A stretch of 64,000 nt of DNA from Campylobacterales bacterium (lineage in GTDB: Bacteria; Campylobacterota; Campylobacteria; Campylobacterales; Sulfurimonadaceae): contig JAJRQV010000087.1 of assembly GCA_024280035.1 (NCBI GenBank), forward strand, positions 1 through 64,000, written 5' to 3'. Below, piece by piece: positions 6,105 to 31,172 of this stretch. Made by a program: the position numbers and the translations under genes. The notes under the pieces were generated by a model, which ran no database searches, was not told the origin of the DNA, and saw nothing but the letters and a program-made list of their open reading frames with translations. How positions within the stretch are numbered: position 1 is the first letter of the stretch; the number at the start of each line of letters is the position of its first letter.

Positions 6105-7178
6105 TTATTTATCTATACAGCTATAAACATCCACATTCCCATTTTTAGGCTGCATGAAAACCCATTGTGCTGTCTCATAATTTAAAATTGGAACCTCTTT
6201 ATATAATGAGATTAGAGAGGTCTGAATATCTTCTTCTTGAGGTTTGGACAGACTCTGTTTAAAGATTTTTTCTCGTTTTTGAGAATTTTTAAGTAACTCA
6301 GATTCATACCACTGCTTTTCACGCATCTCTTTCATATAGGGTTTTTCATTATGTTCCACAAAAGGGGAAGTTTCTAAATCATAATGATTGGTCTGAATTA
6401 AAAAGTTTTTCTCTCCCATTGTACGAATATGTACTTTTTTACTTCCCAATTCAATCACACAGGCTTCTCCTTTTTTCACACCACACAAACTAATAAAACA
6501 AGGAGAACCCAACTCCCAAGACTCTATATTTTTCATCGCTTTTTCATAACTATTTATATTCTCATCTTCAAGCAGTTGACGAATTAAAAATGTAGGGTCA
6601 GACTTAAATTTAGCCGAACGTTTCTTTGGCGCATAATTGATGGCAACAGAAAAACCTTTTTTAGCTCCCGTTAAAACACCTACCATACCCGTAATACCTG
6701 CAATTTGTGCTATTTCAGAGCCCTCTTTATTAATAAATGAAAAATGTCTTGTAGACCAAGCAATATCATCAGCACCCTTCCAGTCTAAGGATCTAAAACA
6801 GACCATCTCTTCTTTTTTCGAATCCCAAATCATCACGACAGAGCACCCCATATGTGATAAGGTGTACTGTCTTTGCAAAAAAGCCATTAGTGAGTTTGAC
6901 ATAAAAGAGCATTGTGAGGCTAAATAATCACTCTCTTTCACATAATGCCCCCACCATCTGTATACAAGGTTATACAGTAGTTTCGCACTAAAATGAACTA
7001 AAACCTTAGATACACCTACTTCATATACCAGTTGACTCATTGCCGTACACAACTCTTTTATAGACTTAAGATCTTTTTCTACAACATCTTTCCAAATCTC
7101 TTGAGGATGAGAAGCCTGTATATATATTTTTCTATTTTGGGTAACTTTAGTAATATTTTTATAAGGATTACTTAGCAC
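6105..7178 (-). CDS. Acid-ceramidase/NAAA-like linear amide hydrolase
   Basis: 357-aa protein that resembles the Ntn-hydrolase branch containing acid ceramidase and N-acylethanolamine amidase. The block GCSVVMIWD...FRSLDWKG (C112 onward) matches the family pattern Cys-Thr/Ser-x-Val...Arg-Asn/Ser-x-Asp. GMVGVLTGAKKGFSVAIN at about 165-182 matches the conserved Gly-rich strand. C112 would be the nucleophile exposed by autocleavage. There is no clear signal peptide. It overlaps the Aas-like gene by 11 bp and is the last gene of the MerR-Aas unit, which suggests it releases a fatty acid from an N-acyl lipid for re-use by Aas. Substrate is inference. Confidence 0.65.
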   Translation of the reverse strand: MLSNPYKNITKVTQNRKIYIQASHPQEIWKDVVEKDLKSIKELCTAMSQLVYEVGVSKVLVHFSAKLLYNLVYRWWGHYVKESDYLASQCSFMSNSLMAFLQRQYTLSHMGCSVVMIWDSKKEEMVCFRSLDWKGADDIAWSTRHFSFINKEGSEIAQIAGITGMVGVLTGAKKGFSVAINYAPKKRSAKFKSDPTFLIRQLLEDENINSYEKAMKNIESWELGSPCFISLCGVKKGEACVIELGSKKVHIRTMGEKNFLIQTNHYDLETSPFVEHNEKPYMKEMREKQWYESELLKNSQKREKIFKQSLSKPQEEDIQTSLISLYKEVPILNYETAQWVFMQPKNGNVDVYSCIDK

Positions 7179-26337: not shown

Positions 26338-26592
26338 TTATGGATGATGTCGACATGGCCAATGTCTCTTACACATACTACACCAACCTTGACCACCACT
26401 TAGGCTTGAAGAAGAACTTCCCCCACCATTATGCCCACAACCTGCAAAATGTCTATGACGACTACCGCCCCAAGCATCTACATCTGCTGTAAAAGTCATG
26501 GATCCTAATGCAATTACTACAGGTGCAGTATATGCCTTCTTTAACAGTTTACGACGTGAAACATCAATATCTGCATCTAACTTTACATCCAA
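26338..26592 (-). CDS. Gly/Ser/His/Cys-rich small peptide, candidate modified-peptide precursor
   Basis: 84-residue protein. An acidic start is followed by SRRKLLKKAYTAPVVIALGS, a basic-hydrophobic stretch, and then a low-complexity C-terminal ~46 residues: DAWGGSRHRHF, a run of five Ser after GGG, and WCSMCKRHWPCRHHP, with four Cys and six His in total. I choose TTG 26592 because an AAAGGGG site lies 6 nt before it; an ATG at 26625 would add 11 residues without a ribosome site. It diverges from a kinase/PqqD/nucleotidyltransferase set 90 bp away. PqqD-like proteins present substrate peptides to enzymes in RiPP pathways, so it is a candidate substrate. Not a known family. Confidence 0.6.
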   Translation of the reverse strand: MDVKLDADIDVSRRKLLKKAYTAPVVIALGSMTFTADVDAWGGSRHRHFAGCGHNGGGSSSSSLSGGQGWCSMCKRHWPCRHHP

Positions 26593-26681
26593 CCTATCCC
26601 CTTTAATGAAAATATTAGTTAGCATTATATAACATTCGTTATTAAAATTAATTTAATTAGTAAACAAAAAGTAAACATATT

Positions 26682-27628
26682 ATGAAAATAACTGATACAC
26701 AAGCATTTGCCCACAATATATTTTTTAATCAAGACTTCATCGAACATAAAAATGCACAAGCCAAGCTTCCCTCTTTACATATCCTAGCCAAACAAATACC
26801 TTCTGAGTTTTATAAGGAAACCTTAAAATATAATCATAATCAAGGAAGAGATGTTTTTTTATCTACGGATAAGAACTTTGATAAAAACAGTTCTGAGCAA
26901 AAATGGATGTTTAAGGTAGATGATGTTCTTAGCTTTTTTGGGAGAAAGGAAGTTCTACCATCTATTATGATTTACATAAAAATGGAAATGCAAAACTTTT
27001 AAAGTACTGGCTTTTACACACCTTAATGCCTATCTATTTAACAATTGAAAATAAATATGAACTCATTCATGCAGGAGGTGTTGAGATTAATAAACAAGCA
27101 GTACTGTTTATCGCCCCCTCTTTTGGTGGAAAATCAACGCTAAGTAATTATTTTATTCAAAAACAGCATGCGATGTTAAGTGATGACCGAGTTGCTTTAA
27201 AAGAAGAGAATGAAACGATTATGACTGTCTCTTCTTATCCCTACCATAGACCTTACCGTCAAACGGAGGACTTAGGCATATCTGTAGAGAATTTTATAAA
27301 AGAGAAGATGCCCCTTCACTGTATTTATGTTTTACAAGCCGTAGAAGCCAAACATGAGATCAACTTCGTCTTATTAAAGGGGATTAATAAGTTCAAAGCC
27401 TTACAATATAATTTTGACTTTAATCTACCCCTAAATAAAGCCAACTCTTTTCAATTAATTGCTAAAATTGCAGCAATTGTTCCTGTTTATAAGATCTCTA
27501 TTCCATGGGATTTAAACAGATTAGAAGAAGTTTACCAAAGTATATGTACGCATTCCAAACATGTTTTAAACATCAGCAAAGAAGATATTTTTAACAAATC
27601 TATTACAAAGAGTCTTTATGAACTTTAA
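26682..27628 (+). pseudogene. HPr-kinase-like protein (HprK-related), frameshifted
   Basis: Two ORFs (26682-27002 and 27026-27628) join into one 315-aa protein if one base is added at the T6/G3 run 26934-26942 (SFF-WEKGSS...). The second part carries the P-loop APSFGGKSTL and, in order, SDDRVAL, the usual HprK kinase layout: HAGGVEI, the Walker A and an Asp-rich Walker B. The restored length equals that of HprK-related kinase A. In lasso-peptide clusters such as paeninodin, related kinases phosphorylate the precursor peptide. Downstream PqqD-like and nucleotidyltransferase genes overlap or abut, so one operon is likely. The shift could be real decay, phase variation or sequencing error. Confidence 0.7.
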
Positions 27629-27890
27629 TCAAGTTATTAGTTTTCCCTCTTACATTATGTTTCAAGAATTTGACAATGAAAGTATTCTTTTAGACATTCG
27701 ATCACAAGAACATTTTGCCTTAGACGCAATAGGAAGTCTTTTTTTTTCACAAATACATAAAGACTCTGGTACACAAGAGAGTTTTGAGAAAATTCTTGAT
27801 CTTTATGAAGTTTCAAAAGAGCAGTTAGAAAAAGACTTAGATAATTTACTTCAACAACTGCTTAAATATGAACTTATAGAGGTGAAATAA
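27618..27890 (+). CDS. PqqD-like peptide-binding protein
   Basis: 90-aa protein with the PqqD fold: ILLDIRSQEHFALDAIGSLFF, then a helical C-terminus QLEKDLDNLLQQLLKYELIEV. PqqD-type RiPP-recognition proteins bind the leader of a precursor peptide and deliver it to a modifying enzyme. Its ATG overlaps the kinase stop by 11 bp, so the two are coupled. It pairs with the kinase and nucleotidyltransferase in a three-gene operon that, by memory, matches the HPr-rel-A-type gene sets. The peptide partner is not proven. Confidence 0.75.
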   Translation: MNFNQVISFPSYIMFQEFDNESILLDIRSQEHFALDAIGSLFFSQIHKDSGTQESFEKILDLYEVSKEQLEKDLDNLLQQLLKYELIEVK

Positions 27891-27893
27891 CCC

Positions 27894-29033
27894 TTGCAAA
27901 ACTTATCTAAAGAACTTTTATTTTTATTAGATTATTCTCAAGATTACTTTAATCATACTCTCCATGAAAGTAGTTTAGACAAACAACTTAATCTTGATTA
28001 CCTTTTTTCTTTGGCCTTAGCTAACGGAGTGCTTCCTTTATTAAACAAGACAAATTTACCTACCATATTTGCACAAGAAAATAGTATTATTCAAAAACGA
28101 AACTTTCTTATGAGTGCACAACTTTTACATCTTGTTTATCTATTAAAACAAAAAGATATTAATATTTTACCAATAAAAGGGCCTCTCTTAGGTCAGCATG
28201 CCTATAAAAACATCTCAATAAGACCCTTTAGTGATCTAGATATTCTCGTACAAAGAGAAGACTTACACGAGGTGAGTCAAACCCTACTGTCCTTAGGCTA
28301 TCAAAGTAAACATCTTATTGACAGTATTAAACATCCTTATGTTCTAAAAAAATTCTCTGACATCTCTTTTACTCATCCTCAAACGGGTGTAATTATTGAG
28401 CTACACTGGAAATTAATTAAAACAGCTTCTGCTGAACTTAGTAATATAAAGGCTCTTTTTAAGAATAGTCATACGGTATTTCTTCAAAACATGAAGCTAA
28501 AAAGTCTACCCTTAGAAGAGGAGTTTTTATACTTATGTATACATGCGGCCAAACATAGGTTTGAACGTATTGAGTGGATGAATGATTTATATTTTCTTTT
28601 AAAAGAACATAAGAGAGACTACAATTGGCAAAAACTCCTAATGATGGCAAAAAATGAGAAAGCCTTAATGCACTATCTCTTAGGTCTTAAAATTCTAGAA
28701 AGTGATTATAAAAAAGAGATACCCCATCTCAAAACTAAGGAATTATTAACTCAGAAAAAAATCACCACCTTATATCAGAAGGTATGGGACTTACATGCAC
28801 AAGACTATGTTTTAAAAGAGAAAAAACAAGGCATTCGTTATATGGAGATTTTCTTTTCTATTCAATTAGAAGAGAGTTATTTACGAAAATTATCTATCTT
28901 AAAAACAGTTATTTTTCCTCTGTACATAGATGATATATTATCAATAAAACAACTCCCTGCTTCATTAAGTTTTTTATACTATTTTGCACGACTCAAACGT
29001 ATCTTTAAAAAAGCTATAATAAACGCTGAATAA
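27894..29033 (+). CDS. Nucleotidyltransferase (NTP_transf_5-like)
   Basis: 379-aa protein with the nucleotidyltransferase block IKGPLLGQHAYKNISIRPFSDLDILV, where the S-D-L-D-I motif supplies the two metal-binding Asp. Relatives of this family sit in lasso-peptide and other RiPP clusters with HprK-like kinases, where they extend a phosphate on the peptide. Start TTG 27894 follows GAGGTG about nine bases upstream, 3 bp after the PqqD-like gene. The 3' end overlaps by 20 bp the repaired end of the convergent acyltransferase-hydrolase gene. Confidence 0.75.
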   Translation: MQNLSKELLFLLDYSQDYFNHTLHESSLDKQLNLDYLFSLALANGVLPLLNKTNLPTIFAQENSIIQKRNFLMSAQLLHLVYLLKQKDINILPIKGPLLGQHAYKNISIRPFSDLDILVQREDLHEVSQTLLSLGYQSKHLIDSIKHPYVLKKFSDISFTHPQTGVIIELHWKLIKTASAELSNIKALFKNSHTVFLQNMKLKSLPLEEEFLYLCIHAAKHRFERIEWMNDLYFLLKEHKRDYNWQKLLMMAKNEKALMHYLLGLKILESDYKKEIPHLKTKELLTQKKITTLYQKVWDLHAQDYVLKEKKQGIRYMEIFFSIQLEESYLRKLSILKTVIFPLYIDDILSIKQLPASLSFLYYFARLKRIFKKAIINAE

Positions 29034-29141: not shown

Positions 29142-31172
29142 TTATTTTTTTGCACTTTCAGCCTTAACAACAGGATCCTCTTTTCCCTGAATAACTAAGG
29201 TCGGCACTACAATTTGGGCTAAGGAAGATTGACACTCTTGCATCAATAATCGAAGTTGGTTCAAGGATTTTATGTAATTACGTTTATAATTAAATTCAGG
29301 AAACTCAGCTTCTGTTTCAACATAATCTAAATCAGCATGAAAGATTGATAAAAAATTATTGAGTTTATTTAATGTAGGAACAAGATAATTCACCCGTATA
29401 TCTTGAAGTTCTAACGCCGCATTAATAACAATTAAACCATCTACCTTATTTAACTTTCTTTGTGCTGCTAAAATTGCAAGTAATCCTCCCGTAGAAAAAC
29501 CTAATAAAAACAGTTTTTCACTTACCTGTTGCATAGCAGCAAAACCCCTATTAAAACTGTCGTACCACATCTCCCATGTACTGTCTCGAAGGTCTTCGCT
29601 TACCGTACCGTGTCCACTTAAACGAACCCCATAAACATTAACACCTAAGGCATGAAGGTACTCAGCTAACACTCTGATTTCACTAGGAGATGATTTATAA
29701 CCATGAGAGATAACAATACCTGTTGTAAATTCAGCCTTATAAAAGACAAAAGGTTCTCCTATCTCTTTTGGTTTAGACAAGATTACCGAATAAAACTTAT
29801 TATAATCAGCCTTATACCTTTTTTTATCTCGATTAAAAATGATATGAAAAATATCTTCTTTAATGGTATGTGAACTACGTTTTAGATTTTTTTGTACACT
29901 TTGACTTACATCATGAAACATAGCAATTTCATTTAAAATTACACGAAAGGTATTTTTAATTCGTATCGTATGAAAGTCATGCGTATCCTCTAATCTCTTT
30001 TTATCTATTTCATAACGTTCATCTTCTATGGGTATTAATATTTTCTGCTGTAATGCCAATTCAAGAGCACTCTCAAACCAAGGGTCTTTTTCATATGTCA
30101 GCAACTTATAAAGTTCATCAGTAATGCTGTGGTGTACAGAATGATTTTTCAGACCAACAACATCTCTTGCGACTAAAAAGATAGCACGTTTAAGCGCATG
30201 GATATCAATGAACTTCTCTTGATAATATTCTAAAACTAAGGCAAAGATATGATCAAAGTTAATTAAAGTGTTTTTATAAATTGCATCCATAAATTTATTT
30301 GTAAGTTCATGTCGACAGTAAGCAATAAGTTCTTTATTTTCAACCTCAGTACAGGTTATATCTGAAGAGATATTATGCTCACACTCTAACTCTTTTTTTG
30401 CATAATAAAGATATTGTGCGATATCAATAGGTTCATCAAAATGAATATGGATTTCAGAACTCAGTAAAATATTACCCTCAATTTCGAGTTCTTCTTTAAT
30501 TCTTTCATCCATAGTCTGCACAAATTTATCTCCAATACTCATCAAAGGATTTGTTCCTGGACGAAGTGGTGTATAGGTAATATTAACAGGGACAATAACT
30601 GTATTTTTATAAGCAAGTTCTTCATCTGCTTCTATATAATACTTTTCACGCATTTTTCGCACCTTAAGTACATCACCCAGTTTTTGTGCTTTTAAATACT
30701 TCTGTTTTAAAAGTTCAGCTTGCATAGCTAACACTGCTGAACCTGTTTTAACCCTTGCTTTTTTGTTTTCTAAGTGTAAAATAAAGTCTCCATTTTTAGA
30801 AACATTTTTATTTTTAATCATCGCACCTTCAGGATAAATCATCCAGTTTTTTCTTCCCGTCATTAAGTCACCAAGTATCACCTCGTTTCTATCTTTTTTA
30901 TGTGTTGAGAGGGCCCCTGCCTTAGAAAGAAATTTACCAAAGTAACCAACAAAAATAGAGTGGTCCGCTAAAGAACGAACTTGCATATCTGTATGCGAAG
31001 AGATAATATAAGGCATAACAAAGGTTTCAAAACGGGTAAAATGGTTAGCAACAAAAAGTGTTGGGGAATCATGAAGAAGATGTTCTTTCCCATGTATATG
31101 AATATTTGCATCAAGAACAGACTCTATCATTTTGATAGCATAATGACCTGATTTATAAAATATATTTTCCAT
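29142..31172 (-). CDS. Acyltransferase + alpha/beta hydrolase fusion (3' end frameshifted)
   Basis: 676-aa ORF. Residues ~1-340 are a PlsC-like acyltransferase (FVANHFTRFE, with H-x4-E in place of H-x4-D, and YPEGAMI). Residues ~470-676 are an alpha/beta hydrolase like monoacylglycerol lipase: ISHGYKSSPSE, GVRLSGHGT, FGFSTGG (nucleophile Ser) and IQGKEDPVV (acid). It stops early at an A7 run (29145-29151). Adding one A restores KKIIDEISS...VIVLGEGKEKV and 43 codons more, to TAG at 29014 (719 aa). The catalytic His normally lies in this lost tail. It ends the beta-oxidation operon, where it may move acyl groups between glycerolipids and CoA. Confidence 0.75.
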   Translation of the reverse strand: MENIFYKSGHYAIKMIESVLDANIHIHGKEHLLHDSPTLFVANHFTRFETFVMPYIISSHTDMQVRSLADHSIFVGYFGKFLSKAGALSTHKKDRNEVILGDLMTGRKNWMIYPEGAMIKNKNVSKNGDFILHLENKKARVKTGSAVLAMQAELLKQKYLKAQKLGDVLKVRKMREKYYIEADEELAYKNTVIVPVNITYTPLRPGTNPLMSIGDKFVQTMDERIKEELEIEGNILLSSEIHIHFDEPIDIAQYLYYAKKELECEHNISSDITCTEVENKELIAYCRHELTNKFMDAIYKNTLINFDHIFALVLEYYQEKFIDIHALKRAIFLVARDVVGLKNHSVHHSITDELYKLLTYEKDPWFESALELALQQKILIPIEDERYEIDKKRLEDTHDFHTIRIKNTFRVILNEIAMFHDVSQSVQKNLKRSSHTIKEDIFHIIFNRDKKRYKADYNKFYSVILSKPKEIGEPFVFYKAEFTTGIVISHGYKSSPSEIRVLAEYLHALGVNVYGVRLSGHGTVSEDLRDSTWEMWYDSFNRGFAAMQQVSEKLFLLGFSTGGLLAILAAQRKLNKVDGLIVINAALELQDIRVNYLVPTLNKLNNFLSIFHADLDYVETEAEFPEFNYKRNYIKSLNQLRLLMQECQSSLAQIVVPTLVIQGKEDPVVKAESAKK

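Follow-up and report, generated by a model that had tools for sequence, protein, structure and literature searches.

The locus described in this study raises the question of whether a small peptide, encoded next to genes for an HprK-like kinase, a PqqD-fold protein and an NTP_transf_5 protein, is the substrate of these proteins and, if so, what kind of product would emerge. It is located in a contiguous stretch of 64,000 nucleotides, here termed the window, in the genome of a Campylobacterales bacterium (2.5 Mb on 107 contigs). Our analysis suggests that these genes probably constitute a cassette for a phosphopeptide RiPP resembling the linear polyphosphorylated peptides (LPP), with a leader that would at the same time act as a twin-arginine (Tat) signal.

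Organization and integrity of the locus

The precursor peptide gene (26338..26592, minus strand) is divergent from three closely packed, co-directional genes on the plus strand that encode an HprK-like kinase (26682..27628), a PqqD-fold protein classified as a discrete RRE (27618..27890) and an NTP_transf_5 protein of 379 residues with a TTG start (27894..29033), in the following termed NTP5. The peptide comprises 84 residues from a TTG start that is preceded by AAAGGGG, with 89 bp between it and the start of the kinase; use of an upstream ATG at 26625 would extend the peptide to 95 residues. It consists of a Tat-like leader followed by a Gly/Ser/His/Cys-rich core. The arrangement agrees with a first-pass annotation of this DNA, which had described a three-gene operon and a divergent 84-residue peptide and had placed all four genes correctly. 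Genes for a cytochrome c, an acyltransferase/hydrolase fusion, a rotamase and other proteins flank the cassette.

The family assignments made in the same annotation are robust for the RRE (PF05402, 1.4e-9) and for NTP5 (PF14907, 2.7e-41), which both score above cut-off. For the kinase, matches to HprK models are weak (PF07475, 5e-5), and although it shares an HprK-like P-loop domain with HprK-related kinase A (NCBIfam TIGR04352), its score of 27.3 bits is far below the cut-off of 200. Its assignment agrees with the confident fold model of an intact kinase from a relative (pLDDT 92), whose best match is HPr kinase/phosphorylase, with low TM-scores and only the kinase domain common to both. The catalytic His, Lys-Ser and Asp-Asp correspond to H148, K169-S170 and D186-D187 of BsfK with identical spacings of 21 and 17 residues, and they are required in that enzyme (PMC10368454). 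Unlike BsfK, most members of this kinase group have Ala in place of the first Gly of the P-loop.

The kinase gene is read in two frames (26682-27002 and 27026-27628), the second of which contains the catalytic residues, with a single break at six consecutive T residues (26934-26939), missed in the first-pass annotation, where relatives read through; in tblastn, intact relatives span both frames and align to the two pieces in order. Such a break could indicate that the kinase is a pseudogene and the locus decayed and non-functional in this genome. However, both the RRE gene and that of NTP5 are conserved and unbroken, and relatives carry cassettes with intact kinases. Moreover, a similar break affects the neighboring gene for the acyltransferase/hydrolase fusion (29142-31172, minus strand), which stops about 40 residues early at a run of A, with the lost C-terminus readable in another frame, and which is intact and longer in five relatives. 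The presence of two homopolymer breaks within 2.3 kb thus points to assembly errors rather than decay, the latter appearing distinctly unlikely, and judging from the sequence the frame break in the kinase is most likely an assembly error of this kind.

Properties of the RRE and of NTP5

The nearest solved structures of the RRE are the lasso RREs TbiB1, PbaB1 and TfuB1, followed by LppB, which ranks fourth in the profile comparison (4.3e-7 compared to 1.6e-16 for TbiB1). Its Asp73, invariant in 22 of 22 sequences, aligns with Asp70 (D70) of LppB, which forms a hydrogen bond with the leader Tyr (PMC13381572). The pairing of a discrete RRE with a YxxP leader is a lasso-peptide feature that is also present in the cassette. 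A second PqqD-like small ORF (G000:C94:46331-46519; L096, about 6332-6520) is found near ORFs that read as ATP-grasp-like, PLP decarboxylase-like and transporter/peptidase-like proteins, and this separate locus possibly encodes another peptide pathway. Two further loci contain kinase-NTP5 pairs that lack a separate RRE (L030:308-2648 and L031:5269-7598) and whose kinases carry about 100 extra N-terminal residues; a fused PqqD domain in these kinases was considered, but the PqqD profile provides no support for it.

NTP5 contains the invariant residues K95-G96-P97, D114, D116 and E169, and its model (pLDDT 86) displays a nucleotidyltransferase fold that best matches the small nucleotidyltransferases MenT1, LnuA and ANT(2'') and weakly FKRP. 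A search of its sequence profile against the PDB returned chance matches only (glucocorticoid receptor). In pseudomycoidin, the homologous gene PsmN is needed for the attachment of hexoses to phosphorylated Ser, where PsmN acts on the phosphate (PMC9266682); LppN was without activity in the heterologous expression host (PMC13381572).

A leader combining a Tat signal with an RRE-binding motif

The leader contains the features of a Tat substrate, with a twin-arginine motif (SRRKLLK, 26539..26559, minus strand) that is kept in relatives, a hydrophobic region and a predicted AxA-like signal peptidase site (VDA, 26473..26481, minus strand). Embedded in the hydrophobic h-region is the sequence YTAPVV (26515..26532, minus strand), which conforms to [Y/W]xxPx[L/V/I/F/A], the motif bound by the discrete RREs of lasso peptides and LPP (PMC13381572). 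The basic-hydrophobic stretch that the first reading had noticed in the peptide is therefore real, but its nature as a twin-arginine signal (SRRKLLKK...VDA) and the presence of YTAPVV within it had been missed. The same layout is found in relatives, where SRRxFLKK is followed by a hydrophobic region enclosing YxAPx[V/I/L] and by AxA. The distance between YxxP and the cleavage site is fixed across the family, with Ala or Gly at Y+19 in 32 of 35 precursors.

Occurrences of YxxP in this set of 35 are circular, as the search pattern demanded the motif. The test was repeated without this demand, by a search that required only a Tat motif and an uncharged hydrophobic region, and [Y/W]xxPx[LVIFA] was present in 31 of 31 Tat-like small ORFs located within 800 bp of a kinase gene. 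The leader profile, which matches the window at 26473-26562 (E 6.5e-14), identifies 15 genomes with matches of E<1e-6 among 399 from the order, all of them belonging to the 27 kinase-positive genomes (hypergeometric 3e-20), and, counted by genus, all 7 genera with strong matches fall within the 10 kinase-positive of 88 (2e-8), values that, like the other statistics on the precursors, overstate independence owing to the phylogenetic relatedness of the precursors.

Alternatively, the peptide could simply be a Tat substrate of the ordinary kind, similar to the TAT peptides of formate dehydrogenase regions (TIGR02811), with a different target for kinase, RRE and NTP5. The leader is certainly good as a Tat signal, and the TIGR02811 profile, which describes likewise small proteins with an SRRxFLKK signal, matches it weakly. 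Yet the TIGR02811 peptides lack YxxP and occur in genomes without the kinase, and the weak leader matches obtained from kinase-negative genomes correspond to Tat peptides of this type, resembling the formate-region family, whereas every kinase-linked peptide contains the motif. The fixed spacing between YxxP and AxA also speaks against this reading, as does the co-occurrence of leader and kinase even when unlinked, since some strong leader matches and kinases reside on different contigs of one genome. We thus consider it unlikely that the peptide is unrelated to its neighbors, and the earlier proposal that it is their substrate is well supported, both by its recurrence with a conserved leader beside the same genes in relatives and by the RRE-binding motif.

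The leader is best read as both a Tat signal and a docking site for the RRE. TatC is encoded in the genome. In only one relative is the cut-off of the generic Tat profile TIGR01409 reached, and Tat export itself is putative, as a small unfolded peptide could also use Sec. This dual leader is the surprising element of the system, for which we found no earlier description: a literature search on Tat in conjunction with RiPPs or lasso peptides and on RiPPs of Campylobacterota, with most subscription journals outside its reach, returned nothing relevant, and RRE-Finder and a 2025 RRE survey mention neither kinases nor Tat.

Conservation of the cassette in relatives

Besides the window, two genomes of its genus, other genera of its family (Sulfurimonadaceae) and Arcobacter-type genomes from a different family carry complete cassettes of peptide, kinase, RRE and NTP5. 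In most of them the peptide gene leads the operon, its divergent orientation being confined to the genus of the window, and the order peptide-kinase-RRE-NTP5 is kept in several genera. Sulfurovum-type genomes and a few deltaproteobacterial/Thermodesulfobacteriota MAGs contain peptide and kinase, usually with the RRE, but no NTP5 nearby. Among 65 distinct kinase genes, 28 have a peptide within 400 bp, and in 12 cases peptide, RRE and NTP5 are all close by; NTP5 accompanies only a minority of kinase loci. A contig scan with a single NTP5 protein as query returned no matches, whereas the kinase alignment did find relatives. As the same genes and leader recur in many relatives, the gene set is beyond chance. 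According to the first-pass annotation, its assignment would be wrong if relatives had no peptide, or an arbitrary one, next to these genes; instead, one with a conserved leader is present where kinase, RRE and NTP5 adjoin.

An Asn-synthase-like gene is found near 21 of the 65 kinase genes, those without a peptide, while 29 of the 31 kinase genes with a Tat-leader peptide have no such gene within 3 kb, and we therefore distinguish two architectures. L067, L074, L078, L080, L109 and other loci combine kinase, Asn-synthase-like gene and RRE in the absence of a Tat peptide and are possibly phosphorylated lasso-type clusters of Campylobacterota.

Variability of the core and candidate phosphorylation sites

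The run of five Ser in the core (26404..26418, minus strand), which the first-pass annotation had proposed as the phosphorylation target, is absent in relatives, whose tails differ from that in the window, as exemplified by L006, where the core is just RRSWGHKK with a single Ser at position 3. The run is consequently not supported as target, and the recurrent feature is instead a Ser near the N-terminus of the core, found among positions 1-4 in 29 of 35 precursors (13.5 in shuffled sequences) and most enriched at position 3 just after AxA (16 of 35 compared to 3.8). Compared with 41 signal-peptide-like controls, a small set chosen heuristically and only from retrieved loci, core Ser is commoner in precursors (Fisher 8e-4 for positions 1-4, 5e-3 for position 3). 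Both BsfK and LppK modify Ser3 of the core (PMC10368454, PMC13381572). The precursor in the window has its Ser at position 4 (WGGS, 26461..26463, minus strand), which we regard as the candidate site on the basis of this enrichment, and the spacing from the motif Tyr to this Ser is about 22 residues, compared to 18-19 in LppA and BsfA. Six of the 35 precursors, and most of the additional precursors, contain no Ser in positions 1-4, and in a Sulfurovum-type subgroup with GPPPSDP-like cores it is located at about 7-8. The site of phosphorylation may thus vary between precursors.

The four Cys and many His of the core in the window might suggest a metal-binding periplasmic peptide, whose modification would serve metal handling. 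The cores of relatives, however, are mostly not His/Cys-rich but Pro-rich, Asn/Gly-rich or Asp-rich, which leaves such a role highly improbable and at most lineage-specific.

Certain core types are shared between loci. Four tails (L005:10748-11017, L024:7858-8250, L026:6188-6643 and L027:6574-7014) have the motif G[FWY]GNGDQxAPGNS...N.AEN in common, which is repeated in some, and a Pfam search of two of them gave no match. Precursors at L024:5078-5419, L026:9034-9441 and L021:5303-5617 share an aromatic amphipathic C-terminal end (GLFSWAKAFFGNILG-like), and at the Sulfurovum-type loci L083, L112, L115, L116, L120 and L121 the core is about 10 residues long (xxSVPxPPxW), which may make these precursors the simplest of such substrates.

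Relationship to known phosphopeptide systems

The closest counterpart is the lpp cluster of Paenibacillus alginolyticus, a cyclase-free cassette for LPP (Popov et al. 2026; PMC13381572). Both contain an HprK-like kinase, a discrete RRE and an NTP transferase beside a precursor, no macrolactam cyclase and variable cores, and both leaders contain YxxPx[V/L]. We nevertheless set the cassette apart from strict LPP, because the extended motif, the SipW-like signal peptidase and the MsbA-like exporter are missing. The extended motif of LPP, YxxPxVLxHQxIxFETxxS, is not retained in the leader of the window, which reads IALGSMTFTADVDA and lacks HQxIxFETxxS. There is no SipW-like peptidase beside the cassette, and a match to TIGR02228 in the genome scores 20.7 bits against a cut-off of 51.85 and lies on another contig; an MsbA-like exporter is absent from the flanking genes. 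While LPP is phosphorylated at Ser3 of the core, here the evidence consists of the enrichment of Ser at positions 1-4. Finally, LPP was reported as restricted to Bacillota (PMC13381572), in contrast to the Campylobacterota and some deltaproteobacterial lineages found here, where a Tat signal with an AxA site serves as leader.

Phosphorylated lasso peptides such as Bsf, paeninodin and pseudomycoidin also share RRE, HprK-like kinase, NTP transferase and a YxxPxL-type leader with the cassette, which could accordingly make such a peptide if cyclase and B2 protease were encoded elsewhere. The occurrence of Asn-synthase-like genes near related kinases might be taken in support, but these genes and the Tat-leader peptides are nearly exclusive. 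Besides, the genome contains no Transglut_core3 B2 protease, its sole Asn-synthase match is unlinked and below the lasso-cyclase cut-off (204 compared to 525 bits), cores such as RRSWGHKK offer no Asp or Glu for a ring, and lasso clusters, which contain cyclase and B2 protease, differ by the Tat signal found here. A lasso product is thus largely refuted and, in our view, extremely doubtful.

Proposed mechanism and implications

Returning to the reading as an LPP-like cassette, the PqqD-fold protein would bind YxxPx[V/I/L] in the hydrophobic region of the leader, as suggested by the conservation of motif and pocket residue. The kinase, assisted by the RRE, would then place at least one phosphate on a Ser near the start of the core, as expected from its homology to BsfK and LppK, known to be RRE-assisted in case of BsfK (PMC10368454), and from the enrichment of Ser. 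In the weakest step of the scheme, NTP5 might add a further group to the phosphate, possibly a sugar or nucleotide, by analogy to PsmN. Tat would presumably export the peptide, and a general signal peptidase would cut after AxA, so that neither a dedicated protease nor an ABC exporter would be needed. The earlier observation that both are absent beside the cassette holds, but the leader being a Tat signal explains it better than a minimal arrangement. Since the leader contains the RRE-binding motif within its Tat signal, the RRE may also delay export of the precursor until phosphorylation has taken place, a quality control within the Tat signal by which a broad clade of Campylobacterota would deliver phospho- or glycophospho-peptides to the periplasm, although we propose this only tentatively.

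If correct, our assignment would extend peptide systems of kinase, RRE and NTP transferase from Bacillota to chemolithoautotrophs living in vents and sediments, and it would describe the first RiPP leader that also acts as a Tat signal, none having been found in the literature searched. Many marine and sulfur bacteria related to this one share the combination of leader and cassette, which would offer dozens of candidate substrates, some with cores of 8-12 residues, for learning what these kinases and NTP_transf_5 enzymes attach.
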